A stretch of 24,110 nt of DNA from a virus, in IMG/VR virus record IMGVR_UViG_3300030388_001510, positions 1 through 24,110 of that record; one strand, written 5' to 3'. Position numbers and translations under genes: made by a program. This document shows positions 4,713-23,994 of the stretch, piece after piece. The first letter of the stretch is position 1; every line of letters begins with the position of its first letter. The notes beneath the pieces were generated by a model. It ran no database searches, was not told the DNA's origin, and saw only the letters and a list, made by a program, of their open reading frames with translations.

Positions 4713-7700
4713 ATGTCGATAGTTACAACAAATTTTATTGCAGGTAGAATGAATAAATCAGTGGATGAAAGACTTCTTCCACCTGGTGAATACGTTGACG
4801 CATTAAATGTTCGATTAGGTTCAACAGAGACTACTGAAATAGGGGCGGTAGAAAACGCAAAAGGTAACACTCAGTTAACTACTCTAAGATATAAAGGTTT
4901 TCCAATAAGTAATCAATCTCGTTGTATAGGTGCGTATGAAGATGGAGTACGAGAAACAATTTTTTGGTTTGTAAATGACCCAGACAATAGTAATTCAAAT
5001 TCAGGTAAACTTGATTTGATTGTATCATACAACACTACAACAGAAGTAATTAATTATCATGTTATATCAGAAACTGTTTTAAACTTTAATCCACAATATT
5101 TAATAACTGGTGTAGATTTAATTGAAAATTTATTATTCTTTACAGATGATATAAATCCACCACGTACAATAAATATAGAAAGAAATTATGATGTACCAGA
5201 AAATAATGTTGATGGTATTATTGAAGAAGATATAAGTGTTATTGTTAAACCTCCAGGATTTGAAAATATTGTAGGAAATAACATTCCTTTACCATCACCT
5301 AAAATACAATTACTTACATTGCCAGGTGGTGAAAATTATATGGAAACAAGATTTTTGTGTTTTGCTTATAGATACAGATATACAGATGGTCAATATAGTG
5401 CAACTTCATTATTTAGTTTACCAGCTTTTAATCCTAAAGCGTTTCAGTTTGATACTAAAAACTATAACAATGCTGGAATGGTTAATTTATACAACGGAGC
5501 TGTTATTAATTTTTCAACTGGTAGTTCAAGAGTTTTAGAAGTAGATTTATTATTTAAAGACACAGCTAATAATAACATTAATGTAATTGAAAGATTTAAG
5601 AAATCAGATTTTGGATGGGCAGATAATACTGAAAAATCGTATACTTTTACTAATAGTAAAATATATACTGTTTTAGGAGGTGACGAATTATTGCGTCAAT
5701 ATGATAATGTACCACATATAGCAAAAGCTCAAACAATTCAAGGAAATCGATTAATGTATGGTAATTATGTTGATGGATATAATTTTACTTCTGGTTCTGC
5801 AATTGGACCAAAAATAGCTCTTAATTATAATACAAGTTTAATAAATACTACAATATTAATTTCTGAATTACCATTAGGTATTTTATCTCAAGGTACTGCT
5901 TATACAATTAATCCAAATGCTTCTCTTACTTATTTAAGTAGTAAGATAACAATGGATTTATCAGCTACTGTTGGTAAATTAAAAAAGAATGCATTATTAA
6001 GTTTTAACTTTGCTTTTGAGCATCAAGCATTACAAATTGGCACAGGACAAGCAACTAATCCTCCAGCTGTTGCAAATAATGAATTTAAAAATGCACCTTT
6101 TGATTTAAATTTAAATATAACTATAGATCAAGATTACTCAAGTACTTATGATTTCTTAAGTAGTGCATTATTTGAAAATGCAATTGGTACAGTATTAAAT
6201 GTAAATTTCAATCCTATTTCAACATCAGATTCTGGTACTTCATTAACTGATTTTTTTAATAATCAATTAAGTAAACCAGCTATAAGTTATGATTTTGATA
6301 AAATTAATAGTAGTGTTACGGATGCAACTCAACAACAAGGATTTGCAATAAGTGGTGTTACACCTGGTTTAAATACTTTTAGTTTACAAACCTTAGCAAT
6401 GCAATATCAATTTATTGATAACACAATTCCTGCTTCTCCTGTAACAACTGACATATATGAATATTTTAGATTTGTTAGCGTAAGTGCTGGATTTACATCT
6501 GACACCAATACTGGTAGTTTGCATAGTAATCGTGATTTTGAAACAGGTATTGTATATAGTGATGACTACGGAAGGTCTTCTACAGTTTTAGTTTCTGAAT
6601 TAAATACTGTTTACGTTGATCCAGGAGATAGTGAAACATCAAATTCTATTCAAGTTCAAGTTAATTCTTTTGCTCCTTATTGGGCAGACAGATATAAGTT
6701 TGTGGTTAAACCAAGTTTAGGCCCTTATGATACTATATTTTCAAATTTTTATTATATAAGACCAAGTGACAACATGATTTTCTTTAAGTTAGAAGGAGAT
6801 AATTCTAATAAAGTTCAAACTGGTGAAACATTAACTGTAAAAGCAGATGTTGATGGGCCTTTAACACGATTTGAAGAAGTAGAAATTTTAGATATAACCG
6901 CAGAGGCAAGAGATTTTTTAAAAGATGCAAGTGAATTAGAGACATCTCAATTAGCAGGTTTATACATGCAAATTAAAAATCAAAATTTTAATGTAGTTAT
7001 TAGTGATGATTCACTTATTGAATATGGAAACATAAAAGTTAAATCATCTGTTTATGGATGTACTGTTAATAGGAAAATAGGTTATCCTTGTTTTACACAA
7101 GATTTATCTTTAGGAGCAGGATTACAACAAGAAAATTACACAGTACCTGGTGGTTCAAAAATTCAAATAAAAGTAACAGCTTTTAGAAATGATACTTTTA
7201 ATGGAAACAACTGTCAACAAATTCTTTGGGAATGGGATCAAACATTTACTTCTACAAAAGATTATACTGATATGAGAAGGTGGTGGCTTGGAGATAATAT
7301 TAATCCAGTTATTGCTTCCCCAGGAGATGTTGATGATGAAACAAATGTAGTTTATTATGAAACCCTTGCAGCTCCAGGATCTTATACACCTCAAACAGAT
7401 ATATTAAAAACTAAAAATGTTGCAAGTAATGTAAGTTGTGATGATTTCGAAGTAGGTTTTCAATGGATACAAGCTGCTACTCAAACTATAAATGACCCTT
7501 TATTTTTAGGTGTATCATCAGGAATGCATGGTTGTTTCAGACCCTTTCCTCAATCAAGAAGAACAGCAGATTTAACAGTAGAATTAATTGTAGTTAGAGC
7601 AAATACATTAATTGTTTTTGAAACTGAACCATTAGATGCAAATGCTGAATTATATTTTGATGCATCCGAATCGTATCCAATAACGCAACCGCAAGGTTTC

Positions 7701-9536
7701 CATATATCTGGATCTAATACTGATTTAGGAGATCAAAATCAAACTGCTGTACAAGATGCAGTTGTTAATTTAAATTTTCAAGATTGTTTTACATTTGGTA
7801 ATGGTGTTGAAAGTTTTAAAATTAAAGATCAGTTAGCAGGTAGGGCTATGGCTTTAGGTCAAAGAGTTTTAGCTGTATCTAATCAAGACTTTAAAGAAGC
7901 TGATAGATTTGCAGGTATCACATATAGTGGTGTTTTTAGTAGTAACAGTGGGGTTAATAATCTTAATGAATTTAATTTAGGATTAGCAAACTTTAAAAAT
8001 TGTGAAACTTCTTTTGGACCAATCCAAAAAATGCATCCTCGTACCACAGATATATTAGTTCTTCAAGAAGACAGAATAACTTATGTTTTAGCAAGTAAGA
8101 ATTTAATTAGTGATAGTACAGGTGGTGGAGTTATTGCTTCAGTTCCTCAAATATTAGGAACTCAAATTGCTCGTATTGAAGAGTTTGGTATTAGTTATAA
8201 TCCTGAAAGTTTTGTTTCTTGGGGATATGACATGTATTTTACAGATGTAAAAAGAGGTGCTGTTTTAAAACTAACAGGTACTGCTCCAGGAAATGATTCT
8301 TTAGAAACTATATCTGCAAATGGTATGCGTTCATATTTTAGAGATCAATTTTATGAATCAATACAAACGCAAAAATTAGGTGGTTATGACCCATATATGA
8401 ATGAATATGTATTGGGAATGAATTGTATATTTATACCTATTCCTCCAGTTATTTCTGCCTGTGGATACAGCTATCAAAGAGATGGAATGATTACAGGAAC
8501 AAGCGTTGTTAGCACGATAGATTATGGTTTAGTAATAGGTCCATGTGATTTTGATTACTATGTTTCAAATAGCTCAGCTGGTGGAGCAATAAAAATATCT
8601 ATATTATGGAATGGTGTTACTACTACAAGTGCATTTGTAAATGGTACAGGTACTTTTAGTTTTGACAAAACATTAAACACACCTACTACCGCTGTAGTAA
8701 CAATAACAGCAGGTCCTGAGAAAACTGATTTTCAATTAACAGCTAAGTGTCCAACTGAAGTAGAAATAACTGTAGTAAAAGTAGTTTTAAATTCTCCAAT
8801 TGATTCTAGTAAATTTATTCACGTAGAATATAAATGGGAAGATGGAACAACTATTAGTCCAATTGATTCTGATTTAGCTACTTTTGATTCTAATGGTGTT
8901 ATTGCTTCTACTTACGACGCACAAGTTGGTATTAGGTCATTAGGAGTATTTCCTTATAGTGGAGCAGATGTAATTATTAGATCAAATAAAATTGGTTTTG
9001 ATAATTATGATTGGACTTTTCCAAATGATAATTTCAAATATTTAACAAGTAATACTTTGTATGCCAATACTGATGCAGGGATAACTGGATTATTAGCAGC
9101 TGCAACAACTATTGCTAACGGTCAAGTAATAAGTCCATCAGAAGGTTTGTATCAAGCCACTTTAACAAACTTAGCTTTACCAATTGGTAATCAATATTTA
9201 TATTTAATATATGACTATAGATTAACAAGTTGTCAAGAATTTTGTTATGATGCATCATCAGCTCAAAACTCTTGTTGTGATTGTACAATAGTTTATACTG
9301 CATATCAAAGTAGTAGTGTGCAGAGTAATAGTGCTATTGTTTGTGGACAACCACTGACGATTCAATATTATCATACAGGTGATGCGGCATTGCCAGTAGT
9401 TGGAAATTTTGTATATTCATCATCTGATGGTGCAGTTGGAACTACCTTACCTTTAGGTCTTTACAAGATAAGTGCAACAGATTTTATAACAGTAAATGAA
9501 TTTGGGTTAGTTGCATCAGTAACTACTTGCCCTTAA
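4713..9536 (+). CDS. Giant tail 'stabilization/muzzle' protein (1607 aa)
   Basis: Residues about 7-54 carry NFIAGRMNKSVDERLLPPGE and ALNVRLGSTETTEIGAVENA, a pattern I know from 'stabilization' proteins of crAss-like and marine podoviruses, whose counterparts form the distal muzzle of the tail. The long middle is beta-strand rich, as expected for propeller or sandwich domains. The conserved region seems to end near residues 1205-1240 (MRSYFRDQFYE, KLGGYDPYMNEYVLG). The remaining ~365 residues are a lineage-specific extension of beta-modules with a cysteine cluster at 1507, 1511, 1521, 1522 and 1524, ending in a module (1544-1607) related to those in the next gene. Start follows the previous stop by one base. 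Role: closes the tail, retains DNA and probably contacts the receptor. No signal peptide is present. Confidence 0.75.
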   Translation: MSIVTTNFIAGRMNKSVDERLLPPGEYVDALNVRLGSTETTEIGAVENAKGNTQLTTLRYKGFPISNQSRCIGAYEDGVRETIFWFVNDPDNSNSNSGKLDLIVSYNTTTEVINYHVISETVLNFNPQYLITGVDLIENLLFFTDDINPPRTINIERNYDVPENNVDGIIEEDISVIVKPPGFENIVGNNIPLPSPKIQLLTLPGGENYMETRFLCFAYRYRYTDGQYSATSLFSLPAFNPKAFQFDTKNYNNAGMVNLYNGAVINFSTGSSRVLEVDLLFKDTANNNINVIERFKKSDFGWADNTEKSYTFTNSKIYTVLGGDELLRQYDNVPHIAKAQTIQGNRLMYGNYVDGYNFTSGSAIGPKIALNYNTSLINTTILISELPLGILSQGTAYTINPNASLTYLSSKITMDLSATVGKLKKNALLSFNFAFEHQALQIGTGQATNPPAVANNEFKNAPFDLNLNITIDQDYSSTYDFLSSALFENAIGTVLNVNFNPISTSDSGTSLTDFFNNQLSKPAISYDFDKINSSVTDATQQQGFAISGVTPGLNTFSLQTLAMQYQFIDNTIPASPVTTDIYEYFRFVSVSAGFTSDTNTGSLHSNRDFETGIVYSDDYGRSSTVLVSELNTVYVDPGDSETSNSIQVQVNSFAPYWADRYKFVVKPSLGPYDTIFSNFYYIRPSDNMIFFKLEGDNSNKVQTGETLTVKADVDGPLTRFEEVEILDITAEARDFLKDASELETSQLAGLYMQIKNQNFNVVISDDSLIEYGNIKVKSSVYGCTVNRKIGYPCFTQDLSLGAGLQQENYTVPGGSKIQIKVTAFRNDTFNGNNCQQILWEWDQTFTSTKDYTDMRRWWLGDNINPVIASPGDVDDETNVVYYETLAAPGSYTPQTDILKTKNVASNVSCDDFEVGFQWIQAATQTINDPLFLGVSSGMHGCFRPFPQSRRTADLTVELIVVRANTLIVFETEPLDANAELYFDASESYPITQPQGFHISGSNTDLGDQNQTAVQDAVVNLNFQDCFTFGNGVESFKIKDQLAGRAMALGQRVLAVSNQDFKEADRFAGITYSGVFSSNSGVNNLNEFNLGLANFKNCETSFGPIQKMHPRTTDILVLQEDRITYVLASKNLISDSTGGGVIASVPQILGTQIARIEEFGISYNPESFVSWGYDMYFTDVKRGAVLKLTGTAPGNDSLETISANGMRSYFRDQFYESIQTQKLGGYDPYMNEYVLGMNCIFIPIPPVISACGYSYQRDGMITGTSVVSTIDYGLVIGPCDFDYYVSNSSAGGAIKISILWNGVTTTSAFVNGTGTFSFDKTLNTPTTAVVTITAGPEKTDFQLTAKCPTEVEITVVKVVLNSPIDSSKFIHVEYKWEDGTTISPIDSDLATFDSNGVIASTYDAQVGIRSLGVFPYSGADVIIRSNKIGFDNYDWTFPNDNFKYLTSNTLYANTDAGITGLLAAATTIANGQVISPSEGLYQATLTNLALPIGNQYLYLIYDYRLTSCQEFCYDASSAQNSCCDCTIVYTAYQSSSVQSNSAIVCGQPLTIQYYHTGDAALPVVGNFVYSSSDGAVGTTLPLGLYKISATDFITVNEFGLVASVTTCP

Positions 9537-9547
9537 ATAATAAATAA

Positions 9548-10594
9548 ATGGGAGTATTAGGAACGTTTTGTTTTGATGGATTAAATTTTTCACAAGCATC
9601 TGCTTTATATACAGATAGCACGTTAAGTGTATTAGCTACTGATGGATATTATTCGCAAGGAGGTATAGTTAGAAGACAATTAAATGGAGTTTTATTAAAT
9701 GCTCAACCTTGTAGTAATTGTGCTGTAGCTTGTGGTTCAGGAGTTGCGGCTTCTATTAGTAATCAAACAGGAAAGTTTGCAGCTACAATAGAATTAGGCA
9801 ACACTACAGGTGCTGTAGTATTATACTTTTATATGGGTCAAAGTATACCTGATGGTGCGATAGCTACATTTAATAGTGCTGAATACAATCGAATGACTTG
9901 TAAAGGAAACCATGATACAGTTACTTTAATAGATGGTAGCGGAGTAACTATTGATTATGCAGGACAAGGTAATCAAGGTACATCTCTTCCTACTTATGTG
10001 GGTAATCAAAACTCTTCACTGTTAAGTAATTCGCCTTATGATGGGGTTGGTGTAACTTGTAGTACACAAGGTGGTCAACTTCAAAATTATATTCTTAATG
10101 CAGCTGCATCTCCATCATATGTTCCTCAAGGAACTTTTTTAGATACAACTGTAACAGTTGGTTCAATTGGTTATGCTTCTGATTCAGGAGGTGGTAATAC
10201 ATCTCCAGTTTTTACAATGATAGTTGGTAAAGATAATGCTTCAGCAACAACTGTTGTTTTAGATATTTATGCTCCATTATGTGGAACAGTATTTAATTGG
10301 GAGGTAGATTGTCCAGTTGCTTTACCGAGTTTTCAAGCTTCAAGTCCAGTATCAGGAACGACTTGTGCTGCCGCTACTACAACTTATTACTTTTCACAAG
10401 ATGCAACAAAAAGTGGTAGTGCTTTTGTTAGAGATACAAATACAACTCCTAATATTGGAAATTTTGTATTTTCAGATGAAGTTGGAGTTAATTATTTAAA
10501 TGATAGTTTTACTCTTAAATATTTTATAGTGGGAGGAAATACTGCTATAGGTGTTAGAAATGGTGTTGTTGTTTCGAAAGGACCTTGTACTTAA
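9548..10594 (+). CDS. Modular beta-rich tail-tip protein, probable receptor-facing (348 aa)
   Basis: Three parts are visible. Residues about 5-55 are a small module (FDGLNFSQASALYTD, DGYYSQGGIVRR, NGVLL, ending PCSNC). Residues about 65-256 are one larger domain with TGAVVLYFYMGQSIPDG, probably a beta-sandwich. Residues about 273-347 are a second small module (TTTYYFSQDA, PNIGNFVFSD, NGVVVSKGPC). The small modules resemble each other and the C-terminal module of the giant protein upstream, which ends 11 bases before this start. Cysteines mark module borders. There is no signal peptide, catalytic motif or membrane segment. Modular, cysteine-bounded, low-conservation proteins at this point of a tail operon usually contact the host surface, so an adhesin or receptor-binding role is inferred. 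Confidence 0.65.
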   Translation: MGVLGTFCFDGLNFSQASALYTDSTLSVLATDGYYSQGGIVRRQLNGVLLNAQPCSNCAVACGSGVAASISNQTGKFAATIELGNTTGAVVLYFYMGQSIPDGAIATFNSAEYNRMTCKGNHDTVTLIDGSGVTIDYAGQGNQGTSLPTYVGNQNSSLLSNSPYDGVGVTCSTQGGQLQNYILNAAASPSYVPQGTFLDTTVTVGSIGYASDSGGGNTSPVFTMIVGKDNASATTVVLDIYAPLCGTVFNWEVDCPVALPSFQASSPVSGTTCAAATTTYYFSQDATKSGSAFVRDTNTTPNIGNFVFSDEVGVNYLNDSFTLKYFIVGGNTAIGVRNGVVVSKGPCT

Positions 10595-10611
10595 TAAAAA
10601 AATATAAATAA

Positions 10612-11427
10612 ATGGCTTTAAATTGCACAAATAATACAGTATCCTATAGTCACGATTCAAAAGGATGGCCTTCATTCTATAGTTACATTCCAGATTACAT
10701 GATAGGAATGAATAGTTTTTTTTATAGTTTTAGTGATGGTAATTTATTTAGACACAATACCAATAATATCCGTAATAGATTTTATAACGTAAATTATAAA
10801 TCAACGATTACAAGTGTTTTTAATCCTGAACCAACTCTTAGTATTAAATTATTTAAAACAATGTCCTATGAAGCTAATACAACCTCTCTTGACACTCTTC
10901 AAGCTCGTTGGGCTTGTACTTCTTTATTTACTGATTTAACGGATGGTAATCCAGGTTCAATGTTAGCAACGTATTTTGTTCAAAAAGAAGGAGAATTTTT
11001 TAGTTTTATTAGAAACAACGGTCAAGTTAATTGGGCTATGCGTGCTGCGACAGGAATAGGAAATTGTAATTCGGTTGATGCAGCAGATACATTAGCTGTA
11101 TTAATTGGTTTCCCATTAAACTTAGGTGTTGTAATAGGTATTGGAGATGATGTTTATAGAGTTATTTTAAATGGTAGTGTATCAACTGGGCCTCCAGAAT
11201 TAATTGGTAGAATTACAGCAAGAACATCTACACAATTAACAGTAGATGTACAAACTTATAATGGTCAAATACCAAATGTAAACCAATATATTACAGCAAT
11301 AAAAAATGGTATTGCAGAATCTCATGGAGCAAGAGGATACTTTTTACAATTTACATTAGAAAACAATTCAACACAGCCAGTAGAGCTGTTTTCAGTAGGT
11401 AGTAGTTTGATGAAAAGTTATCCATAG
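10612..11427 (+). CDS. Tail structural protein with conserved GWPSFYSYIPDY block (271 aa)
   Basis: Near the N-terminus (about residues 18-100) is KGWPSFYSYIPDYMIGMN, then FYSFSDGNLFRHN, RNRFYNVNYKSTITSVFN and LSIKLFKTMSYEA. From memory, this block normally lies in the C-terminal part of the large stabilization/muzzle protein in related phages, right after a segment like the one near residues 1205-1240 of the 1607-aa protein. Here it is a separate gene beyond the 348-aa protein, so the muzzle unit may be split into two chains. The C-terminal part (about 165-270) is beta-rich and ends near FLQFTLENNSTQPVELFSVG. The protein probably assembles with the giant protein at the tail end. Start is the first ATG after an A/T-only spacer. 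Confidence 0.65.
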   Translation: MALNCTNNTVSYSHDSKGWPSFYSYIPDYMIGMNSFFYSFSDGNLFRHNTNNIRNRFYNVNYKSTITSVFNPEPTLSIKLFKTMSYEANTTSLDTLQARWACTSLFTDLTDGNPGSMLATYFVQKEGEFFSFIRNNGQVNWAMRAATGIGNCNSVDAADTLAVLIGFPLNLGVVIGIGDDVYRVILNGSVSTGPPELIGRITARTSTQLTVDVQTYNGQIPNVNQYITAIKNGIAESHGARGYFLQFTLENNSTQPVELFSVGSSLMKSYP

Positions 11428-11447: not shown

Positions 11448-11858
11448 ATGGAATTACAAATACGAGCGTTAATAGAAACAGATTACGATAAATTCTTATG
11501 TAAATGGTGGAAGGAATGGAGATGGGATGCACCTGACAGAGATTTTTTACCAGAAAACGGTACAGGTGGTTTTGTTGTTTATGATAAAGAAACTCCTATT
11601 GTTGCAGGATTTATGTATAATACTAATTCTGGTATTGCTTGGTGTGATTGGGTAATTTCTAATATAAATTATAAAAACAGAGATGGTCGAAAAGAAGCTA
11701 TGGAGCTTTTAGTAAGTACCATTACTGAATACGCAAAAGGATTAGATAAGAAATTTATGTATGCATTAATTAAAAACAAACCACTTATAGCAACTTACGA
11801 AAAATTAGGTTATGTAGAGGCAAGTGCATATATCACAGAATTAATAAAAAAAATATAA
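11448..11858 (+). CDS. GNAT-fold N-acetyltransferase-like protein (136 aa)
   Basis: Length and pattern fit the GNAT family: a start MELQIRALIETDYD followed by a helix (FLCKWWKEW), central strands (GGFVVYDKETPIVAGFMY, then IAWCDWVIS), a helix after NRDGRKEAMELLVSTI, and the typical ending LIATYEKLGYVEAS (about residues 111-124). The acetyl-CoA pyrophosphate loop (usually R/QxxGxG/A) is degenerate here, reading NRDGRKEA, so activity and substrate are uncertain. Small GNAT-like genes are common among tail and ejection genes of flavobacterial and marine phages. Possible roles include modifying a virion protein or a host target; none is shown. It lies between a tail gene and an internal virion gene, possibly with its own promoter, and overlaps neither. 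Confidence 0.75.
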   Translation: MELQIRALIETDYDKFLCKWWKEWRWDAPDRDFLPENGTGGFVVYDKETPIVAGFMYNTNSGIAWCDWVISNINYKNRDGRKEAMELLVSTITEYAKGLDKKFMYALIKNKPLIATYEKLGYVEASAYITELIKKI

Positions 11859-11859
11859 T

Positions 11860-12726
11860 ATGGCAGCATTAACATCAGCAATAGTAGGAATAGGAACTGG
11901 AATTGCAGGTGCAGCAATGAGTTTTTCTCAAGCAGCAAAAGCAAAATCAAATGCAGCAGAAGCAACAAAAGCCTCAAAAGACTTAATTATTGAAGCTGAA
12001 AAAAAAGCTGAAGTCGAGTATATGCAAAAGCTTAACATTCCTTTAGATTCTTATGATGAAGAGTATAAACAAAACCTTGCAAATACACAACAAAATGTAG
12101 CAGCTTTACAAGAAGGAGATGCACGTAATTTAGCGGCTGGTGTTGGAAAAGTTGGTGCGGCAGGAGTAGAGACCAACGAAGCAATTAGAATTACTCAAGG
12201 TAAAGACGAGTTTGCGTTACAAAAAATGCAACTTGAAGAACAATCAGCTATTAATCAAGACCTTAAAGATATTAAAGTTGGTGCATCTGCCGATCAACAA
12301 ATAATTGCTCGTGATGCAAAACAAGCAAGGGTTGCAGCTATTAGTTCTGGAGTATCAGCTGTTGGAACAGCAATTGGTTCTGCGGCACAAGTAGTTCCTC
12401 TATACACTGCAAGTAGAGCAGATAGACAAGCAAATAAAATTGCAGATATGTTAGATGGTAATAAATTAATGGAAACTAAAGTAAATAAAGACGCTTTAGG
12501 AAATGAATCTAAATATGAGGCAGCTAAATTAGCTGTAGCTGCTGGAACAGGTACTGCGAAAGAAATTGAAGAACAGAAAAAATTAATGACATTATATCAA
12601 CCCACATTATCAGTTCCTATTGGGAGAGAACGTATTATTGCAGGAATAAAGAAAAGAAATTATACCAAAGATCAACGTAATGCAACCGATTTCCTTGAAA
12701 ATTTTGATTACGATTTTAGTAGATAA
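11860..12726 (+). CDS. gp14-like internal virion (ejection) protein (288 aa)
   Basis: The layout recalls T7 gp14-type ejection proteins. It has a small-residue hydrophobic N-terminal helix (ALTSAIVGIGTGIAGAAMSF, residues about 3-22), a long alanine-, glutamate- and glutamine-rich coiled-coil region (about 25-155), a second hydrophobic segment (AAISSGVSAVGTAIGSAAQVV, about 158-178) and a charged tail. Such proteins are packed in the head and enter the cell envelope during DNA ejection, where the hydrophobic helices can form part of a channel. The gene starts one base after the acetyltransferase stop and precedes two large virion proteins, the usual order of an ejection module. Identity rests on architecture; sequence homology to gp14 itself is not visible by eye. 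Confidence 0.65.
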   Translation: MAALTSAIVGIGTGIAGAAMSFSQAAKAKSNAAEATKASKDLIIEAEKKAEVEYMQKLNIPLDSYDEEYKQNLANTQQNVAALQEGDARNLAAGVGKVGAAGVETNEAIRITQGKDEFALQKMQLEEQSAINQDLKDIKVGASADQQIIARDAKQARVAAISSGVSAVGTAIGSAAQVVPLYTASRADRQANKIADMLDGNKLMETKVNKDALGNESKYEAAKLAVAAGTGTAKEIEEQKKLMTLYQPTLSVPIGRERIIAGIKKRNYTKDQRNATDFLENFDYDFSR

Positions 12727-12743: not shown

Positions 12744-15062
12744 ATGGCAGAAAATAATTCAAAACCTTCAGGAGCAAATAAATATTCTGTATATGCTCAA
12801 CAAGAAGTAGATTCTACACAAGTTAATTGGGGTAAAATTGCAGGTGATTTAACTAGAGGAGCTGAAGCAATTAGAGATGAAAGACAAGGTAGAAAAGATG
12901 CTATAGACGAGGCTACTGTAAATGCAATGGATCAGTTATCTCAAATAGAAGGTACTGATAATGCAGATGCAGCAAGTTTATTAATAAATGGTTCAAACAT
13001 GTCAGTTCAAGCTTTAAAAGAGCAAGTAAACTTATTAAGAAGAGGTTTGGCAGGTCCAAATGGAGAAAAAAACTACAAGCTTTTTATGACCGAACAAAAA
13101 AATGGTTATAAAAATTTAAGTACTGCTGTAAAAGCATGGGATGCTTGGGCAACGGAAGCCACAGATAGATTGCAAGCTGCTAAAGATGGTGGTGTACAAG
13201 GTGGAGGATTAGAAGTTTTTATAAATTTACAAACGGAAGCTTTAGGGAACTTGAAAAATAAAAAGCTATGGTCAAATCCTACTAATGGAAAGATGAGTTT
13301 AGTTACCATGCGAAAAAATCCAGAAACTGGTAGATTTGATGTTATGCCTGATTATAAAACACAACCAGAAAATTATCAGAATCCTAACACCATGAATTCT
13401 TTAATGAAATATCAACAAGATAGAATTGATGTTGATGATATGGCAACTGCACAAACAAAACAAATTGGTCAAATAATACAATCATTTGTTAGTGGTCCAG
13501 CTTATAGTGTTTTAAAAGGTAATGGTGCTGTTAAAACTGTAGAAGATTTTAGAAACTTTGGTAACTTTGGAAAAAAATCAGATGGAACTTCTATGACATA
13601 TGATGATTGGAAAACAGCTCAGATTAATGCAATGGTTGGTAGCGACAAGGATCTTAGTAATGAAAATGCAGGACAAGTTTTATTTAACGGTGGAGGTTAT
13701 AAATACGCTAAAAGTTTAAAGCAATTTGAAGAAATGAATCCTGGGCTTGGAAAAGAATTTTGGATAAAAACAGATGCTACTTCTGGTAGACCAGTTATTA
13801 CTCTTAACGACTCTCAGATGACGGAAGCTCGTAGGCTTGCTGATATAGCAATTGAAACTCAAGTTTCTCATATTGAGAAATTAACTCAATCAAAATCAGG
13901 ACAACAAGCACAACAACCAAATCCTGGAAACGCATCTATTGCTGCTGCTAAGAAAAGACGTGCAGGTTATTTTACTGATGTAAATGGAGTTATAACAGCT
14001 GCTGCTGGTACTGCTTCATCAATAGGTGAAGATAGATTGCTTGATATGAATCAACAATTTTTAAACTCAAAGAATACAACAGACGCAAATACAGTAATTA
14101 ATCAAATAGAAAGAACAGCAACTGAAATAGGAATCTATAAAACAGTAAATGGTAAAAAAGAGCCTGTTATTATTCAGAAATATGAAATGATGACTGAAAA
14201 CGGTGTTGAAGTACCTGATTTGACCAAACCTTTAAGTTCAAAAGATATTGCAAGACAAGTATATAGAGAAATTATTCCTCGTGCAGAAGTTAAAAATATG
14301 CCTTTTAAACAATTTTATGAAGAAGCACTTGCAAATGGTCAAGATTTTACTCCAAGAATGATTAAGGATGCCAATGGAAACATGATTAAAAATGACAAGT
14401 TTAAAGGAGATGAAATTACAAGTACAACAACAACGTTTACTGCTTTTGATGGTTATGATTCTGCTAACGCATCTACAGATGGTAAGGTTGGAGGAAACAC
14501 AATTGCAAGTAACTTTGGAGTTCTAAGTGGTAATGAGGAAAAAGCAGCTCCAGTAGTTTTATCCGCTTTTAAAAGAGGATTACGTAAAGTAGAACGAGAT
14601 TTTGGTTCTAATTTAGGTATAAAAGTATCTACACTTGATGTAAGCGGACCAACAAATGAAATTACAGTACAGTATAAAGACCCTATAACTGGAGTAGCTG
14701 AATCAAAAACTTTTTATTATGATGATGACAACACTTTGCTTCAAACTGAAGTAGATAATCATATTAATAGTATTATAGATGCATATAACAAATCAAAATC
14801 AGGTTCGTCACGAGGTGGTGCTGGTTTAGGTAGAACTAATGCTCCTCCTTCAGATATTAGATTAAAAGAAAATATTAAATTAATTGGAAAATCTGAAAGT
14901 GGAATAAATATTTACAGTTGGAATTATAAACCAGGAATTTACGAGGAAGGAATTTTTACAGGAGTTATGGCACAAGAAGTTCCATGGGCAACTGTACCAG
15001 TAGGAGATTATCTTCATGTAGATTATAGTAAAGTGGATGTAGAATTTAATAAAATAGGTTAA
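12744..15062 (+). CDS. Internal virion/cargo protein ending in an S74 self-cleaving chaperone domain (772 aa)
   Basis: Residues 1-700 are mostly helical and polar (glutamine, alanine, lysine, asparagine), without signal peptide or clear membrane segment, and look like an ejected cargo protein. The last 70 residues (703-772) begin SDIRLKENIK and contain GVMAQEVPWA and LHVDYSKVDV, the pattern of the Peptidase S74 intramolecular chaperone domain. Ser703 and Lys708 (spacing +5) fit the Ser/Lys cleavage pair known from endosialidase-type tail spikes, so self-cleavage before Ser703 is predicted. The long C-terminal helix of classical S74 domains is missing; the protein stops right after the DYSK motif. 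A glycine/serine-rich linker (about 688-702) precedes the domain. The gene lies between the gp14-like protein and the giant protein, so an ejection role is inferred, although S74 usually marks fibres. Confidence 0.7.
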   Translation: MAENNSKPSGANKYSVYAQQEVDSTQVNWGKIAGDLTRGAEAIRDERQGRKDAIDEATVNAMDQLSQIEGTDNADAASLLINGSNMSVQALKEQVNLLRRGLAGPNGEKNYKLFMTEQKNGYKNLSTAVKAWDAWATEATDRLQAAKDGGVQGGGLEVFINLQTEALGNLKNKKLWSNPTNGKMSLVTMRKNPETGRFDVMPDYKTQPENYQNPNTMNSLMKYQQDRIDVDDMATAQTKQIGQIIQSFVSGPAYSVLKGNGAVKTVEDFRNFGNFGKKSDGTSMTYDDWKTAQINAMVGSDKDLSNENAGQVLFNGGGYKYAKSLKQFEEMNPGLGKEFWIKTDATSGRPVITLNDSQMTEARRLADIAIETQVSHIEKLTQSKSGQQAQQPNPGNASIAAAKKRRAGYFTDVNGVITAAAGTASSIGEDRLLDMNQQFLNSKNTTDANTVINQIERTATEIGIYKTVNGKKEPVIIQKYEMMTENGVEVPDLTKPLSSKDIARQVYREIIPRAEVKNMPFKQFYEEALANGQDFTPRMIKDANGNMIKNDKFKGDEITSTTTTFTAFDGYDSANASTDGKVGGNTIASNFGVLSGNEEKAAPVVLSAFKRGLRKVERDFGSNLGIKVSTLDVSGPTNEITVQYKDPITGVAESKTFYYDDDNTLLQTEVDNHINSIIDAYNKSKSGSSRGGAGLGRTNAPPSDIRLKENIKLIGKSESGINIYSWNYKPGIYEEGIFTGVMAQEVPWATVPVGDYLHVDYSKVDVEFNKIG
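14850..15059 (+). other. Peptidase S74 chaperone domain with predicted self-cleavage site
   Basis: This marks codons 703-772 of the 772-aa protein. Cleavage is expected immediately before Ser703 (codon 14850-14852). Lys708 is the likely partner residue. The block GVMAQEV and the final DYSK are the other conserved elements. Released fragment: about 70 residues. Confidence 0.7.
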
Positions 15063-15063: not shown

Positions 15064-18000
15064 ATGAATGAATATTTAGTAGAATTGTACAGTTGGTTAG
15101 ATACTAATCATGATTATTCATCTCGTTACACAGTGGACGATTTTCAAGACAACATGCAAGACGAATCATTTGCTTTAGAAATGTATGAGTGGTTGAATGG
15201 TGTAGACGAAACGTTTTCTGAAAGAGAACCTATTGAAATATGGAGTAAAAAAGTAAAAAAAAAAGGCGATTTAGAACAGCAAATTTCTTCTGGAGTAGCG
15301 GAAATTACGGAATCGCAACCGAAAGATTCGTCTTCGGATACTTTAAATCCAAACACACCCATAAATCCATTAAACAACGAGCAGGACAACAGTGGAGATG
15401 AGGTAGATGATCTTGGTAAACCAGTTACTCAAACTGCTGAACCTAATAATCAACAAATAATTGATGAAGATGTAGTTGTTACAAGTGAAATTGATGGTGA
15501 GGTAGTTGAGGAAGAAGTTTTTGATTCTTATGATGAAAGTCAAAAATCAATTATTGAACAAACTAAAGACCCTTTTTCTTTTTCTATAAACACAGTAAAT
15601 GATAAATTAATTAATGGAACTGAAGAATCGGCTGTTCCTTTGATGAACTATCACTTTAATCAATATGGATTTGAATTTAGTAAAACTGATGTTTTTGGTG
15701 ATGGTATGAATGTCACTGCCCTTAACGGTAAGGAATTATATGTTAATTTAGATCCTTTTAAGCTTTTAGGCATGGATTCTGGGTACGGAGCAGATAATGG
15801 CGCTAAAGAAGAAGCAGCTGCTTTAAGAAATTTTTTAGAATCAAACAAAGCCGAGAGTCGTAGATTATCATTATTAGAAAATGGATATTCTGCTTTAAAG
15901 AGAAAAATTGTTGCTGAAAAGGATATTGATAATTCAATAAATATTTTAAATATTCAAGCTAACACTTTTAATAAAACAATAAATAGTTGGTTAGAAGACA
16001 AGAGAAAGTTAGATGAGCAAGGGCTTTATTTTGATGGTATAAAACAAGAGCAATTAAATCAACCAGGTACACGAAAACTATTTGATGAGTATCAAGCTGC
16101 AAGAACAAGGTCTAATGCTGAAAGAGCAGGAATATTACAACGTGACAATGATTTAAGCACAAAAGGTTATGCTTTAGATGCTACAATAGGAAGATATTCA
16201 GAAATGCAGTCTCAACGTGGTAATCTGTCTGGTGCAATGTTAGATGCAATTTGGAAAGGAGTAGGTAGACAAACTACCACTGCAATGAATTATACTATAG
16301 ATGCAGCTGTAAATTTTGATGAGTTTGGTAATGCTGGTGAAGATTCTTTTAACAGATTGTTTCAAGACACTGCTAAAAAAATGTATAATGTAGAAAAAAA
16401 TCCTAATAGAATTAACGGAGATGCATTTAAAGGATATTTAGCACAAAATTTAGATAAAAAACAAATAGAAAAAGTAAGAGCAAAAACTAAAGATATACTT
16501 GCTAAACAAGCAAAATTTGATATTTATAATTGGCAAGAAGATGGTGGAGCTGATTTAAAAAAAGTAGATGGTGGAGCTAGGTATTCTGATATCGCAAGAA
16601 CTAAAAACATTGAAAAGTTAAGCGAAGGTTCAATACTTGAAACTTTAAGGAATACTCCTACTGATGTTTTTGGAGATGACGCTACTACTGATGAATATAG
16701 TGATTTAAGGAAACAAGAGTTTTGGGCAGGTTCTTATTTAGGTTTAGGTGAATCGTTACCTGCAATGATGGGTGGCCCAGGATTAGCTGGGTGGGCGCAA
16801 AGAACAGCTCAAATGTTTGGTCAAGTAAGTGATCATGTTAATGAGGAAATGTTTAACAATCCTAATTTTGCTAATATTTCAGAAAATGAAAAATTATCTG
16901 TTGCTCTTCCTATAGGTATAGTAGTTGGTGTATTAGAAAGTGTTGGATTACGAAATGTAATGAAACAAAAAGGTTTATTAAATAAAGTTCTTTTAAAAAC
17001 AATAGGTAAATACACAGGTGCTTCACAAGTTAAAAAAAGAGGGTTTACAGATGTTGTAAGGCAAGAGGTTGACAATTTGTTTGCTCGTGGAGTTTTAGTT
17101 ATTGGAGCAGGTGGTGTTGCTGAATTTGAAACAGGTGCAGCTCAAGAAATAGCAGACATAGGAATAAAATCTATTTACAACTTTAATAAAAAATCAGACA
17201 TGTTCCGAACTCCTGACTCTATAAAGGATGGGTTTAAACAAGTTCTGAGGGCTGGCGCACAAGAGATGGTCGGTGGATGGATAATGAGTGTTCCACAAGC
17301 AATGATAAGTGCTGCTTCATCAAAAGATTTTTCTCGTTTAGAAGAGGGAGTCTTTGAGCAATTTGAAGAAATGGTTGGTGATGGAAAGTCTACAAAATTA
17401 AATCAAAATTTTTATGACAAAGCCAATACTGTTAGATTAAAAGAAGAGATTAATATGGGAAATCTTACTCCCAAAGAAGCTCAAGAACAAGAAAGAATTT
17501 TTAATCAAATAAAAGGTGTTTATAATCAAATACCAAGTGATTACACAACAGACCAAAAAAAGACAGCTTTAGGGCTTTTATTAAGTAAGCAAGAAATAGA
17601 ATCAAGAATACAAGGAAAGGATGAGTCATCGGTAAAACGTCTTAAAAAAAATATTGAGTCTATAAACTCTGATCTTGAGAAATTAAGTAAAGATGCTTAT
17701 CAGGCAATACAAAATCCAAACCTTGGAAGAGTTGAAGAAGAAGAAATAATTACTGAAGAAAACGCTATAACTTCATTAAATGATAAAGGAGTAGAAAATC
17801 CTACAGCAGAACAAATTAAAACCGAACAAGATGCCTTACAAAAGCAAAGCACAGAGAGCTTGGATGCACAAGAATCTTCCAGAAGTAGCGAAGAGGTGGG
17901 ACAAGACTTATCAAACCAGCAGTCTACCGAACAGGGTACGACCGAAAACGATATTGAAAACCAAGAGAAAACCGAAGAGGAAATAATTCAAGAAGAAGAT

Positions 18001-21000
18001 TCAGATTTTGAACAATTATTAGACCCTGACTCAAAAATTGAATCGGATATTGATAATCTTCCAAAGAAAAGACAAACTGTAACCGCTGAAAATGGGGTTG
18101 AAGTTGAACTTAATGTAAATGAAGAAAATCCAAACTTGTCCTTTACGTCATCTTCTTCTGAATATGGTATACCTACTAAAAATGAGTTTTCTAATAAAAT
18201 TTTACGACAAGCAAAAAATGCTGCAAGAGCTATATCAAAAATATTTCCTAGCTTAAAAATTGTAGTACATAGAAATACAGCTGACTATCTTCAAATGGAT
18301 CGTGATAACGACAGAGGTATGTATCAGCCAAAAGACAATACGATTCATATTAATTTATCTAAAGCTAACGGTAGAACTGTTGGTCATGAAATATTTCATG
18401 CAGTATTGTTGAATAAGTTAAAGATGAATGATAAGGTAGCTCGTGCTGTTACTAAAAAAATGGTACAAGCATTATCACGTTCTAAAACTATAGATAAAGC
18501 TACAAGAACTGAATTAAAAAAATTCTTAAAAAATTACGATTCTGAAATTCAGAACGAAGAAAAATTAGCTGAGATTGTAGGAATGGTTGCAGATAATTAT
18601 ACATCGTTAACACCTTCCTCTAAATCAGTTGTTAGAAAATGGGTAGAAAAAATTGCTGCTGGCCTTGGTATTGAGATAGGACAATCAGAGCAAGATGTAA
18701 TTGATTTATTAAATACTATTGCACGTAAAACAGTTACTGGAGAACAAATTACTGAAGGAGACCTTAAAGCAATAGACGATTTTGCAGGAGGTAAAAAAGT
18801 TAAAAATCCTGCTAAAGCTTTAGCGAGAAAACAAATAGTAGGTGGCTTTGAAGTATCTTATACTGAAAACGAAAATATTGAGGCATATATAAAAGATGGT
18901 AGAGTAACTGAACCTAAAAATGTTTCTGAATTTAATGGTCTACAAACTGTTATTACTTCTCCAGATGATATGTTGGCTGGAGAGATAAAATACAAAGGGA
19001 AAACAATCTTCGAGGGTGAAGGTGGTGTGTTTTTTGTAACTAAGTTTGGTGATGTATGGGCATCTGGAGCAGAAGGAACAGCAAATACTATTGCTAATGG
19101 ATTAAATACGCAATTAAAACAAAATAAGGGGAGAGCGTTTCTTACTTTAACAAAAGGAACAGACGCTAAATTAGTTAGTAGTGCTTCAGGAGTAAACTCC
19201 ACTTTAGCGGTGCTAAATACAATGCTTGAAAATAATATAATTTCAACAGATATTTTTAAATCTGCGGTATCTCAAGCGATATTAAATGAAGAGAATATAT
19301 TAGCAGAGAAAAAGAAGAACGATATAGCTAAGGCTAAAAGAGAAGGTAAAGAATTAATAGAACCTAAGACAAATTCTAAAAAAGTTGTACTATCAAAAAG
19401 TATATCCGAACTTCTTGGTAGTAGTAAAAAATACTTTACAGATCCAAAAACAACAACCTTCGAGACAAGAGGTAATGTAGTAAAAGGAATTGTTAGCGAG
19501 ATTGCAAAAAGTTTTACAACTAAACAAAGTAAAAAAAGTTTAGCTGAATTCTTAGGAGGAGATACGTCAAGAGGTGTCGGTGTCGGCAATACTAAACTAA
19601 AAAGTGGTAAGCCTGGATCTCAAGCATTAGTTGATTTAATAGCAAAAATAGCAGCTGAAGGCTTAACAAAAGGATTAAATGTTGGGGATGTTTATGCTGT
19701 TATTGAAATAAATAGTGAGGTTGCTGTAAAAGAAGACAGCCATCCAAGTTATCCATTTCATATTAGTATGAAGAATGGGAAAAAACCAATTTTACATTTA
19801 ATACAAAATAGAGAAAACGGTAGGGATGTATTCAAGCCTCAATATGGAACAGATAAAAAAACTAAACAAAAACTAAATAATCCTTATAAAGTAGGGAATG
19901 TTTCAGTAATGAATGGTCAATTTGAAACTGTATCTAAAACAAAAACAGAAGTTGAAACAAAGGTTGAAGAAGAATCAGAAGTAACAGCAGAAGTTAGAAA
20001 ACAAAAAACTGATGCTGAAAAGTTAGGGATACTGTTTAAAATGAATCTTAAAGGATTTATGCCAAGCACTATACCTTTAGGAGAATTACAACAAAAAGCA
20101 AGAAGATTAGGTTTAAGAGTAGAAGCAGCTCCATATAAGGAAGGATATAAAAAAGGCCAAGTTGCTGGATATTATTTTTCTAATGGTAAAACACAAAACG
20201 GTAAACCAAGATTTTATAATCCAAGAGCTAATGTCAGAAAACAAAAATCAATGTCTGACATTGGTAGACAGACTAATAAATTACTTGATATTGTTAACTT
20301 AGGTAGAGATAATAATATTAAAGACAGAACTATTGTTGATTATTTAAAACGTAATACTAAGTTCATGATGACTGAAATAAAGTCAGTAATGAAAACAAGT
20401 AATTTTGTTTTAAGAAATGTGCCTAAAGCATTTGGAAATGTAAAAGGTGGAATGTTACAAGGTATACAATTATTTAATAGAGTTGATTCTTTTAGAAGAA
20501 ATTTATTAGATTTTAATATTACTCCCACAGGGAAAATAGTAGAAAAATTTACTACAAAAATTGATGAATTAAAAGCAGAGAGAGCAGACTTAGATATTAA
20601 GGATGTTAATGGATCAGCTTTATTATTGGAGAAAATACAAAAATTAGAGACTAAATTAAAAGATTTTCAAAATACTGCGAAATTAGAAAACAAAAAGTAT
20701 TATGTTTTTACACAAAATGAGATTGACAATAAAACTGTAGATTATTTACAACAAACTAAAGCATATATTGCTGAATCTAATAACGGAGCTTATAGTACTC
20801 AACAAGCTAAAATGACAGCTGAAATGATGACTGCCTTTAACGGTAAGCAAATGAGAGGAGATGCCGCAGTTAAAATAAAGTTAGCTCGTCAGATAATATT
20901 AAAAAGAGGTAAAAGTGATTTACAAGCAACAAAGAGAGATTTAAGAAATTTTATTAGAGTAGCGCTTCCAAGCTTTATTTTTAGTAGACCAGAAGTAAAT

Positions 21001-23994
21001 ACTTTAATTAGAAAAATTACGGATGCTAATGTTGATAATGTTGAAAATTTAAAAGAAGAAGTTTTAGAATTTGTAAATGAAAAAACAAACACTGTATTAA
21101 CAAAACAAATAAATGATATATTAAAGGGTAAATACGATGACACGCAGTCAGGTAGGAAAAAAGGATACAAAGTATCCGATGCTGTTCGTATACGTTTAAA
21201 ATTTATTTCAGATAAATTAGGAGGTATTAACAATAAAACAGATGCAAACATATTAACTAAACTTGGAGAACAAATTCAGATTGAGATTACTGAAATAGAG
21301 TCATCTACTGAAATTCAAACACCAGAACAAAGAGGTACTGTTTCGGATTTACAGATAGCTTTAAATTTTGTAAATGCTAATCTTTCTTTAAATACATCTA
21401 TTGAGCAAACTACAGATTTAGAAACTGTAATTAATAATTTAAATGATTTAGTAGACCAAGGTAAAACAGAAATGGAAGCTGCATTACGTGATAAACATAA
21501 TGAATATGTACAAAATTTCCAAACAGCTTATTATGAAATAACAGGTCAAAAAATTGAAATGTATCTCCCTAATCCAGAATTTTCTGAATTAGACGTAGAA
21601 TCTAAAAAAAATCCAAGATTAATAAAAAACCCAAATGCTAAAGAATTGCTTTTAGATTATAAAACTTTAAGTGAAGCTAAGAAAAGAGGGGTAATAAATA
21701 AAGCTAAAATATCTTTCTCTAATTTAACAGAGGCTGTGGTTTCTTTTATTATCGGACAAAACGATTTATTAAACTTAATGGCTAAGATTGGTAAAATGCC
21801 TGGAGAATTATTTGGAGGAGACCTTCAAGAATTGGTTACATTTAAAGTAGATGATTCAACGAATGATTATAAAGCTCGTAAAATGGCTACTACTTTAATA
21901 GTAAATGCAAAAATAGAAGAAATATATGGAACTAAATGGAGAACATTATCTCAAAATGATAGTGTTAAATTGCCCACTGGTATATTTTTACAAAGTGGTA
22001 TTGAGCTTGCTGATTTAAGTCAAAATCAAATGGCTTATTTAGTAAATCAATATAGAGATCCAGCTAATAAAGCATCATTCGAAGGAAAATACGGAAACGA
22101 TTACCAACGTATTATGACAGAAATGGAAGCCAAATTAAATCCACAAGTTCTGAAGATTATGAAATGGCAAGTAGAGGAATTTTTTCCATCTCTTTATGAT
22201 GGATATAATGACGTTTATAAAAAAGTTTACAGAACCACTATGCCTTGGAATGAACATTATGCTGGTAGAATTTACAGAGATGTTGGGAAAGGTAAAGAAG
22301 AAATTCCAGATATTTTATCTAATCAAAAAGGAGCATACAAAGGATTTGCTTCTCCTGCTTCTACAAAAGCAAGAGTCAACAATACTGTCCCTATTAAAAG
22401 TATGGATCAAATGGCCGCAATGATGACTTATGTAAATGACATGAATTATTTTGCTGCATTTGGAGAAACTTTAAATGATGTTAATAATATTTTTAATAAT
22501 GAGGATATTAGAAATGCAATTATTAATAATTATGGTCAAGGCCCAATGCAAAGTATTGACACTATGATTACTGGACTTGGTAATCGTGGAGTTTCTAAGG
22601 AATATGGTATGGATTGGATAAATAATGTTACCTCAGCTTTCGTGATAGGTAGATTATCTATTAACCCAACTATTTTTATTAAACAGTTAACCTCTGCACC
22701 AGCATATGCTGTGAGAATTGGTTTTAGAAATTGGATGAAGTATTCTACTATGGAACTTCCTCAAATGAGAAAAAATTGGAAAGAAATAACTGATAATTCT
22801 GTTTATATACAAGACAGATATGGTGAATCTATTTTAAGAACTTTAGAAACATATGCTCCAAGTAAAGTAGAAAATTTGATTCCATCTCAAACAATGGGTA
22901 CAATTGTAGATGTGCTTATGTATTTAGTTAAACAAGGAGATAAAGGAGCAATTATTATAGGTGGAGTACCTAATTATGCTTTTTATAAAAATCAGTATAA
23001 AAAAAATAATCCAGATGCTACTAATCAAGAGGTAATAGATTACGCTGTAAAAATGTTTGAAAGAGACACAAAAAGTTCTCAGCAGTCAAGTGATTTTCAA
23101 GATAAAGACCAATATCAAACAGGAAACGTGTTTGCAAGAGGTGCAAATATGTTCTTAACATCTGTTAAACAATACTTACGAAAAGAAATGACTACAACTC
23201 GAAATCTTTATCGTAAAATAAAAAGCGGTGGTAAAGAAGGTAAAGGAACATATTGGGAGAATTTTAAAACATTAGCAATGTATCACTCAATATTACCAGT
23301 TATATTTCAATTTATTGCAGCAGGACTTCCAGGAGTATTAGCTCCATGGGAGGATGAAGATGAAGATACTTTAATAAGAGCAGCAACTTTAGGTAATTTA
23401 AATGGTATATTTCTTCTTGGTTCATTTATTGATGCTTTTGGAGATTTCATGACTTCTAAGCCTTGGACTGGTAAAGACCAATCACAAATCCCTCTTCTTT
23501 CAATAGGTTTAAATTTTTTCAGAGAACTAAATGAAGCGAATAGATTTAATGTAACTCCATTTGATAAAAATGGAACATTACGTTCACAAGAAGATATTGC
23601 TAAAAGTAGAGCTGGTAAAGAAGCTGCTACTAAAAAAGCTTTTTATAATCTTGCTAATTCTGGTTTACCTTTAAAACAATTAGAGCGTTTAATTAAAAAC
23701 GCTGATGAAATTACTAGTGGAAATGTAAAAGGAACAGAATTAATTATGAGAATATTACAGTTTTCTGACTATCAAATATTATCTAAAGAAGAACGTGCTG
23801 CACTTAAAAAACCTAAAACCAAAGGAAGAACATTAACTAACAAAGAGTTACAAAAGTACGACCCAGATGCTTATAGAAGAAAAATGGAATTGGAGAAAGA
23901 GTTTAAAGATACTGATATGTACAGACAAACACAAGAAATGAAACGTCAACAAAAAATAATGAGAGAACAAATGTTAGAAGATATGTATAATTAG
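15064..23994 (+). CDS. Giant polyvalent virion protein with HEXXH metalloprotease (2976 aa)
   Basis: Regions in order: a small helical domain (1-66, ELYSWLD... MYEWLNGVDETF); an acidic linker (about 67-165); a largely helical region with hydrophobic segments near 610-628, 673-700 and 727-751; a second acidic, glutamine-rich linker (890-1000); a metalloprotease domain (about 1040-1210) with H1108-E-I-F-H1112 and likely third ligand E1170 in EEKLAEIVG; an unrecognised region (about 1258-1640) with HPSYPFH at 1560-1566; long coiled-coil-like stretches (about 1700-2150); and a conserved-looking C-terminal part with hydrophobic segments near 2742-2758 and 2780-2796, ending in a charged helix. This resembles phage 'polyvalent' proteins packed with DNA and injected. 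It closes the rightward operon, starting one base after the previous stop. Roles in head maturation, envelope crossing and host take-over are inferred. Confidence 0.75.
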   Translation: MNEYLVELYSWLDTNHDYSSRYTVDDFQDNMQDESFALEMYEWLNGVDETFSEREPIEIWSKKVKKKGDLEQQISSGVAEITESQPKDSSSDTLNPNTPINPLNNEQDNSGDEVDDLGKPVTQTAEPNNQQIIDEDVVVTSEIDGEVVEEEVFDSYDESQKSIIEQTKDPFSFSINTVNDKLINGTEESAVPLMNYHFNQYGFEFSKTDVFGDGMNVTALNGKELYVNLDPFKLLGMDSGYGADNGAKEEAAALRNFLESNKAESRRLSLLENGYSALKRKIVAEKDIDNSINILNIQANTFNKTINSWLEDKRKLDEQGLYFDGIKQEQLNQPGTRKLFDEYQAARTRSNAERAGILQRDNDLSTKGYALDATIGRYSEMQSQRGNLSGAMLDAIWKGVGRQTTTAMNYTIDAAVNFDEFGNAGEDSFNRLFQDTAKKMYNVEKNPNRINGDAFKGYLAQNLDKKQIEKVRAKTKDILAKQAKFDIYNWQEDGGADLKKVDGGARYSDIARTKNIEKLSEGSILETLRNTPTDVFGDDATTDEYSDLRKQEFWAGSYLGLGESLPAMMGGPGLAGWAQRTAQMFGQVSDHVNEEMFNNPNFANISENEKLSVALPIGIVVGVLESVGLRNVMKQKGLLNKVLLKTIGKYTGASQVKKRGFTDVVRQEVDNLFARGVLVIGAGGVAEFETGAAQEIADIGIKSIYNFNKKSDMFRTPDSIKDGFKQVLRAGAQEMVGGWIMSVPQAMISAASSKDFSRLEEGVFEQFEEMVGDGKSTKLNQNFYDKANTVRLKEEINMGNLTPKEAQEQERIFNQIKGVYNQIPSDYTTDQKKTALGLLLSKQEIESRIQGKDESSVKRLKKNIESINSDLEKLSKDAYQAIQNPNLGRVEEEEIITEENAITSLNDKGVENPTAEQIKTEQDALQKQSTESLDAQESSRSSEEVGQDLSNQQSTEQGTTENDIENQEKTEEEIIQEEDSDFEQLLDPDSKIESDIDNLPKKRQTVTAENGVEVELNVNEENPNLSFTSSSSEYGIPTKNEFSNKILRQAKNAARAISKIFPSLKIVVHRNTADYLQMDRDNDRGMYQPKDNTIHINLSKANGRTVGHEIFHAVLLNKLKMNDKVARAVTKKMVQALSRSKTIDKATRTELKKFLKNYDSEIQNEEKLAEIVGMVADNYTSLTPSSKSVVRKWVEKIAAGLGIEIGQSEQDVIDLLNTIARKTVTGEQITEGDLKAIDDFAGGKKVKNPAKALARKQIVGGFEVSYTENENIEAYIKDGRVTEPKNVSEFNGLQTVITSPDDMLAGEIKYKGKTIFEGEGGVFFVTKFGDVWASGAEGTANTIANGLNTQLKQNKGRAFLTLTKGTDAKLVSSASGVNSTLAVLNTMLENNIISTDIFKSAVSQAILNEENILAEKKKNDIAKAKREGKELIEPKTNSKKVVLSKSISELLGSSKKYFTDPKTTTFETRGNVVKGIVSEIAKSFTTKQSKKSLAEFLGGDTSRGVGVGNTKLKSGKPGSQALVDLIAKIAAEGLTKGLNVGDVYAVIEINSEVAVKEDSHPSYPFHISMKNGKKPILHLIQNRENGRDVFKPQYGTDKKTKQKLNNPYKVGNVSVMNGQFETVSKTKTEVETKVEEESEVTAEVRKQKTDAEKLGILFKMNLKGFMPSTIPLGELQQKARRLGLRVEAAPYKEGYKKGQVAGYYFSNGKTQNGKPRFYNPRANVRKQKSMSDIGRQTNKLLDIVNLGRDNNIKDRTIVDYLKRNTKFMMTEIKSVMKTSNFVLRNVPKAFGNVKGGMLQGIQLFNRVDSFRRNLLDFNITPTGKIVEKFTTKIDELKAERADLDIKDVNGSALLLEKIQKLETKLKDFQNTAKLENKKYYVFTQNEIDNKTVDYLQQTKAYIAESNNGAYSTQQAKMTAEMMTAFNGKQMRGDAAVKIKLARQIILKRGKSDLQATKRDLRNFIRVALPSFIFSRPEVNTLIRKITDANVDNVENLKEEVLEFVNEKTNTVLTKQINDILKGKYDDTQSGRKKGYKVSDAVRIRLKFISDKLGGINNKTDANILTKLGEQIQIEITEIESSTEIQTPEQRGTVSDLQIALNFVNANLSLNTSIEQTTDLETVINNLNDLVDQGKTEMEAALRDKHNEYVQNFQTAYYEITGQKIEMYLPNPEFSELDVESKKNPRLIKNPNAKELLLDYKTLSEAKKRGVINKAKISFSNLTEAVVSFIIGQNDLLNLMAKIGKMPGELFGGDLQELVTFKVDDSTNDYKARKMATTLIVNAKIEEIYGTKWRTLSQNDSVKLPTGIFLQSGIELADLSQNQMAYLVNQYRDPANKASFEGKYGNDYQRIMTEMEAKLNPQVLKIMKWQVEEFFPSLYDGYNDVYKKVYRTTMPWNEHYAGRIYRDVGKGKEEIPDILSNQKGAYKGFASPASTKARVNNTVPIKSMDQMAAMMTYVNDMNYFAAFGETLNDVNNIFNNEDIRNAIINNYGQGPMQSIDTMITGLGNRGVSKEYGMDWINNVTSAFVIGRLSINPTIFIKQLTSAPAYAVRIGFRNWMKYSTMELPQMRKNWKEITDNSVYIQDRYGESILRTLETYAPSKVENLIPSQTMGTIVDVLMYLVKQGDKGAIIIGGVPNYAFYKNQYKKNNPDATNQEVIDYAVKMFERDTKSSQQSSDFQDKDQYQTGNVFARGANMFLTSVKQYLRKEMTTTRNLYRKIKSGGKEGKGTYWENFKTLAMYHSILPVIFQFIAAGLPGVLAPWEDEDEDTLIRAATLGNLNGIFLLGSFIDAFGDFMTSKPWTGKDQSQIPLLSIGLNFFRELNEANRFNVTPFDKNGTLRSQEDIAKSRAGKEAATKKAFYNLANSGLPLKQLERLIKNADEITSGNVKGTELIMRILQFSDYQILSKEERAALKKPKTKGRTLTNKELQKYDPDAYRRKMELEKEFKDTDMYRQTQEMKRQQKIMREQMLEDMYN
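15255..15264 (+). other. Run of ten A, possible slippage site
   Basis: Ten consecutive A (codons for KKK, then GGC) sit at the border between the small N-terminal domain and the acidic linker of the giant protein. The -1 frame after the run stays open until TGA at 15399-15401; the +1 frame stops within a few codons. Slippage would yield a product of about 110 residues. Confidence 0.35.

Follow-up and report, generated by a model that had tools for sequence, protein, structure and literature searches.

We propose that the protein encoded at 12744..15062 of the window (the whole 24,110-base stretch that was analysed; all features given here lie on its plus strand) is, on balance probably, a cargo protein of the virion whose C-terminal mini-S74 tag is optional and removes itself, and that its mature form is the same as that of relatives without the domain. 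In this proposal Ser703, activated by Lys708, would cut between Pro702 and Ser703 while the protein folds or assembles; the 70-residue domain would be released and the protein left behind would be equivalent to its S74-less relatives. The cassette would thus be a transient C-terminal cap or a folding or assembly tag, standing outside the ejection machine. Cleavage could be set off, for example, when the body assembles on the portal or inside the capsid, or it could be constitutive; its trigger would differ from that of the S74 domains of spikes, because both the trimerising helix and the upstream beta-helix are absent. We favor a tag that can be removed over a fibre in the wrong place because the module comes and goes among relatives and is common on the ejection proteins of short-tailed phages.

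The first-pass annotation had described a short S74 domain with a Ser703/Lys708 pair and no long C-terminal helix, and these points are borne out, as is the length of the tail that cleavage would remove (70 residues, 703-772). Pfam PF13884 (Peptidase_S74) matches residues 703-746 with 26.5 bits against a cut-off of 22 (E 8e-6), which is the sole S74 match in the contig. A profile built from 74 short S74 sequences, the window's included, matches the PDB entries of MYRF (7dc3, E 3e-5), the GA-1 neck appendage (3gud, E 5e-5) and a fibre (6f45, E 0.006), and its Ser aligns with the catalytic Ser of 3gud; phmmer with the single domain found no match in the PDB. The short domain corresponds to residues 1-74 of the 129 in 3gud, and it has no equivalent of the remaining C-terminal residues, about 55, among them the coiled-coil helix. 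The chain here stops 11 residues past VDY, and the AF2 model of the domain alone (pLDDT 85) shows no helix there. A fold search of the PDB with models of the domain and of the full protein returned no ICA structure and no meaningful match, and a search of BFVD with the domain model returned viral predicted models named 'intramolecular chaperone auto-processing' (E 5e-6); the alignments behind the AF2 models left out phage-record sequences. As far as sequence can establish it, the mini-S74 domain (residues 703-772, 14850..15059, predicted scissile bond Pro702-Ser703) is a true S74 homologue that lacks the trimerising helix.

The two candidate catalytic residues, assigned by position and conservation, are the nucleophile Ser703 (14850..14852) and, at Ser+5, the general base Lys708 (14865..14867). 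The same spacing is seen in MYRF (S587/K592) and endoNF (S911/K916) (PMC8326128). Both residues are unchanged in 76/76 short S74 copies, for which the mean column identity is 41%, and they make up two of the only four invariant columns. They are also kept in all 15 copies that were found independently of the SD.RLK seed motif. We looked for replacement of either residue in close homologues, and all S74-bearing relatives retain both, though loss of the whole domain does occur. The dN/dS of the S74 segment is 0.16-0.17 between the window and its relatives and 0.16-0.22 wherever divergence is sufficient, and the dyad is under purifying selection. The invariance in 76 copies, along with retention in the 15 unforced ones, argues for catalysis.

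Self-cleavage before Ser703 is plausible on these grounds. The cut would fall at the end of a Gly/Ser-rich linker (residues 687-702, 14802..14849) that terminates in NAPP and would become the mature C-terminus; residues 687-710 have low pLDDT, and the S74-less homologues end in or just after this linker. Pro at P1 is found in the body family of this protein, and in 6 of the 76 short S74 copies overall. In MYRF, cleavage depends on a trimer formed through the C-terminal coiled-coil helix (PMC8326128), and the S74 cleavage of T5 uses an Arg of a neighbouring beta-helix (PMC4690869). Neither a MYRF-type trimerising helix nor a T5-type beta-helix is present here. These absences and the Pro at P1 mean that the mechanism would have to differ, or that the domain may stay attached. 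The latter possibility amounts to a mini-S74 that stays uncleaved, a small domain with a structural or docking role that touches, for instance, the giant neighbouring protein, the portal or the tail. We consider this rather unlikely while giving it real weight: the two missing elements and the Pro speak for it, and the strict Ser/Lys invariance is hard to explain by it without catalysis.

Further points on docking come from the start of the giant gene. Compared with L032, the window shows 86% identity in the S74 segment, with a dS of 0.45, and 54% in the body, with a dS of 1.26, whereas for L032 against L028 the two parts have similar dS (0.47 and 0.56). The first ~70 residues of the giant protein also show high identity (76%). 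This is suggestive of an exchange of the S74 end and the start of the giant gene as one block, and only suggestive since the dS of the S74 segment rests on just 70 codons. A swap of this kind would suit a domain that docks on the giant protein, as would the LYxWL...KVKKK repeat type, which stands at the start of the giant protein in 6/6 S74-bearing genomes. Against this, the S74-less L158 shares that repeat type, which rules out a strict coupling between S74 and repeat, and adjacency by itself explains co-exchange. The region itself (15064-15260 in the window) holds two copies of a ~30-residue repeat ending in KKK, and several unrelated-looking repeat types are shuffled among relatives (window, L045:8216, L027:9848, L009, L158). 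Similar repeats are found in gp128 of Cellulophaga phage phi19:3.

The self-removing tag that we prefer is also consistent with how the domain is distributed. Six body homologues carry S74 (the window, L028, L029, L031, L032 and the distant but fully syntenic L045, of 733 aa, body E 9e-45), and 31 complete homologues, counted as distinct loci, do not. The S74-less L027, which shares 52% identity with the window across 693 residues, ends at ...GGSGGTEEKPDMG, near the window's junction ...GRTNAPP/SDIRLKEN, and S74-less homologues in general terminate about where cleavage would cut. In the tree L027 is nested among the S74-bearers with support of 100/99, and monophyly of the S74-bearers is rejected (p-AU 0.005, for a group that was named after the distribution had been seen). 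Among close relatives S74 behaves as a cassette that is gained and lost. Such a patchy distribution, with most homologues lacking the domain, could also be expected of a decaying or non-functional remnant of recombination. We think this very improbable given the purifying selection on the segment (dN/dS 0.16-0.22) and the intact dyad of all S74-bearing relatives.

The body (residues 1-702) offers little that resembles a fibre. The full-length AF2 model has a mean pLDDT of 66, with long helices to about residue 165, mixed alpha/beta structure after that, a helix at 663-686 and the Gly/Ser linker up to Ser703. The earlier description of a helical protein holds for the first part and not for the later one. 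The model contains no beta-helix, and neither Pfam nor PHROG gave a fibre family match outside the S74 domain. The only PHROG matches of the product (P0001) are phrog_6121, to the S74 part, and phrog_11285; there is no whole-protein match to PHROG 4287, DNA ejection protein, and what the two have in common is the domain, not the body. No member of the body family was found in a pattern scan of bacterial genomes. We also considered that S74 masks a membrane segment before the Ser, and dropped the idea since none of four host groups or the window has an upstream 45-residue stretch at KD 1.6.

These properties weigh on two further readings. One, raised in the first-pass annotation, is a tail fibre or spike whose gene lies where none would be expected; it could be argued from the many phages whose fibres are capped by S74 domains (PMC4690869, PMC10769870). 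The lack of a beta-helical or fibre match in the body, the existence of S74-less body homologues and the use of the equivalent slot for virion cargo or ejection proteins in relatives effectively exclude it, and we give it almost no credence. The other is the canonical role, in which S74 trimerises and folds the cargo and then cuts itself off as quality control. The same mini-S74 does end T4 gp5-like hub/spikes, which are a trimeric class, and the dyad is conserved. However, the 31 body homologues without S74 fold without it, cargo C1 of crAss001 was resolved in 12 copies rather than as a trimer (PMC10172136), and the two features of a trimeric ICA chaperone that were tested, the C-terminal coiled-coil helix and a trimeric (triple) beta-helical body ahead of the cleavage site, are both absent. 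We judge this role improbable. From the first-pass suggestion of a trimeric cargo matured by self-cleavage we thus keep a likely cargo and, with an invariant dyad, a plausible cleavage; there is no sign of a trimer, the helix is missing and most relatives do without the domain.

Support for a cargo protein comes mostly from the gene neighborhood, and the placement among ejection genes that was first suggested is upheld by synteny with the crAss-like muzzle/GNAT/cargo/giant block. Upstream lie a 1607-aa muzzle-like virion protein (4713..9536; phrog_14478, E 3e-213; homologues in Cellulophaga and Flavobacterium phages), a Crassvirus muzzle C-terminal domain protein (10612..11427; Pfam crAss_MUZ_C, E 5e-9), a GNAT-like protein that marks the operon ahead of the ejection genes (11448..11858; phrog_17252/3810; orthologues in phi18:3, elemo and MW202828) and a small candidate cargo protein of 288 aa (11860..12726), the conserved upstream neighbour. 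The 'gp14-like' label of this last protein comes from its place in the operon and from its N-terminus, hydrophobic by hydropathy, rather than from a family match. The 772-aa protein itself follows, its class taken from family alignment and synteny, and then a giant protein of 2976 aa (15064..23994). At the ring-protein position there are two proteins, both matching PHROG virion structural families. The tail module is of crass type, and the phage is a crAss-like podovirus. By the muzzle, its named relatives are the Cellulophaga phages phi19:3, phi13:2, phi18:3 and phi46:3, the Flavobacterium elemo phages and MW202828. The order MUZ_C-GNAT-gp14-like-body-giant is conserved in IMG/VR contigs, MW202828 and MAG contigs. 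A scan with crAss_MUZ_C returned mainly MAG contigs, and wherever the body gene was found the arrangement was S74-less.

The slot between muzzle/GNAT and giant protein is that of virion cargo in crAss-like phages. In PhicrAss001, gp45 and gp46 are encoded right after the muzzle and packaged as virion cargo (PMC10172136). In Cellulophaga phage phi18:3, gp120, gp121 and gp123, which follow MUZ_C and GNAT, bear the GenBank note 'experimental MS/MS proteomics'. The latter comparison is anchored by tested orthology of MUZ_C and GNAT, and gp121 is a positional equivalent without a sequence link to the body; hhalign of the body against crAss001 gp45/gp46 and phi18:3 gp121 detected no homology. The product is thus likely carried in the virion as cargo for ejection, and its gene occupies the place where the second ejection protein is encoded. 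The case is strong by position, and by homology it can be inferred only within the body family.

Several features of this region are worth recording in their own right. The muzzle is split in the window (4713-11427), with the MUZ_C domain encoded as a separate gene, and the two parts are separated by a 348-aa protein without any match that is variable among relatives. Crass-like and many other podoviral operons have a GNAT-like gene directly ahead of their ejection genes, and the phiGT1 record ties this gene to P22 gp14 and T7 IVPA. Neither Pfam nor PHROG gives a significant match to the giant protein, which carries a zincin-like HEIFH motif at residue 1108 (18385-18399), and a homologue (P0006) has two HEFGH motifs. 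A crass-like muzzle/GNAT/cargo/giant block also occurs within a 168-kb contig (L169, scaffold2) from Aquimarina algiphila M91, a flavobacterium in culture, possibly as a prophage or a co-sequenced phage.

An S74 domain on an ejection protein had at first been taken as exceptional, and this view has to be given up. A scan with the domain returned 80 loci, in which the C-terminal copies have 63-91 residues after the Ser, mostly 67-78, and the hosts belong to unrelated protein families. Among hosts of ~270-620 aa, 38 of the 54 scanned match phrog_4287 'DNA ejection protein', a match that lies partly within the S74 part; other hosts are T4 gp5-like hub/spikes (phrog_13211). Cultured examples are the 'putative DNA injection protein' of Salmonella phage 7-11, the 'putative ejection protein' of Pseudoalteromonas H6/1 and Sulfitobacter phiGT1_17, for which the depositors recorded the S74 domain and the preceding GNAT gene. 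Microcystis phage Mwe-JY13 is a further cultured phage whose ejection protein bears a mini-S74. In a muzzle-type phage (L077) the domain is on a small protein, the positional equivalent of the gp14-like one. By these matches mini-S74 is common on podoviral ejection proteins, and the setting here is not unusual. Among the papers covered by our literature search, none dealt with S74 domains on ejection proteins. In three further loci (L096, L110:1968-7052 and L116) mini-S74 lies mid-protein, in proteins of 1,694-1,823 residues and with two copies in L110, and cleavage there would leave two separate proteins.

Present understanding of S74 autoproteolysis is limited to trimeric spikes and MYRF, where cleavage needs trimerisation via the C-terminal helix. 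A helix-less S74 that is widespread on ejection proteins and keeps its dyad invariant would imply that the same chemistry can be triggered in another way, or else that the domain has been repurposed and does not cleave. The question also matters for the maturation of phage ejection proteins. We can tentatively extend our proposal to a minimal self-cleaving module, without coiled-coil helix or beta-helix, that would serve podoviral and crass-like ejection proteins as a general self-removing tag timed by virion assembly; we see this as possible, though short of probable. In practice, automatic 'tail fibre' labels drawn from S74 can mislead.

Comparison with known systems helps to place the protein. 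With the ICA/Peptidase S74 domains of endoNF, T5 pb1, GA-1 gp12 and MYRF it shares the Ser + Lys(+5) dyad and the SDxRxK...GvmAQEv core, but it is without the ~55 C-terminal residues and the upstream triple beta-helix and has Pro at P1. It is like PhicrAss001 cargo C1 (gp45) and C2 (gp46) in its slot, after the muzzle and before the giant cargo protein, whereas these two packaged proteins (PMC10172136) have no S74 and no detectable homology to the body. The mini-S74 of the T4 gp5-like proteins of myovirus contigs L002/L003/L038 is 60% identical to the one here, and there the host is a baseplate hub/spike, not cargo. The podoviral mini-S74 ejection proteins (phrog_4287/phrog_6121; phiGT1_17, 7-11, H6/1) are alike in having a ~70-residue C-terminal domain with an intact dyad in a block of ejection genes. 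In phiGT1 the mini-S74 protein directly follows the GNAT-like gene. The podoviral hosts are small and come first after GNAT, whereas the host here is larger, comes second and has a body unrelated to theirs.
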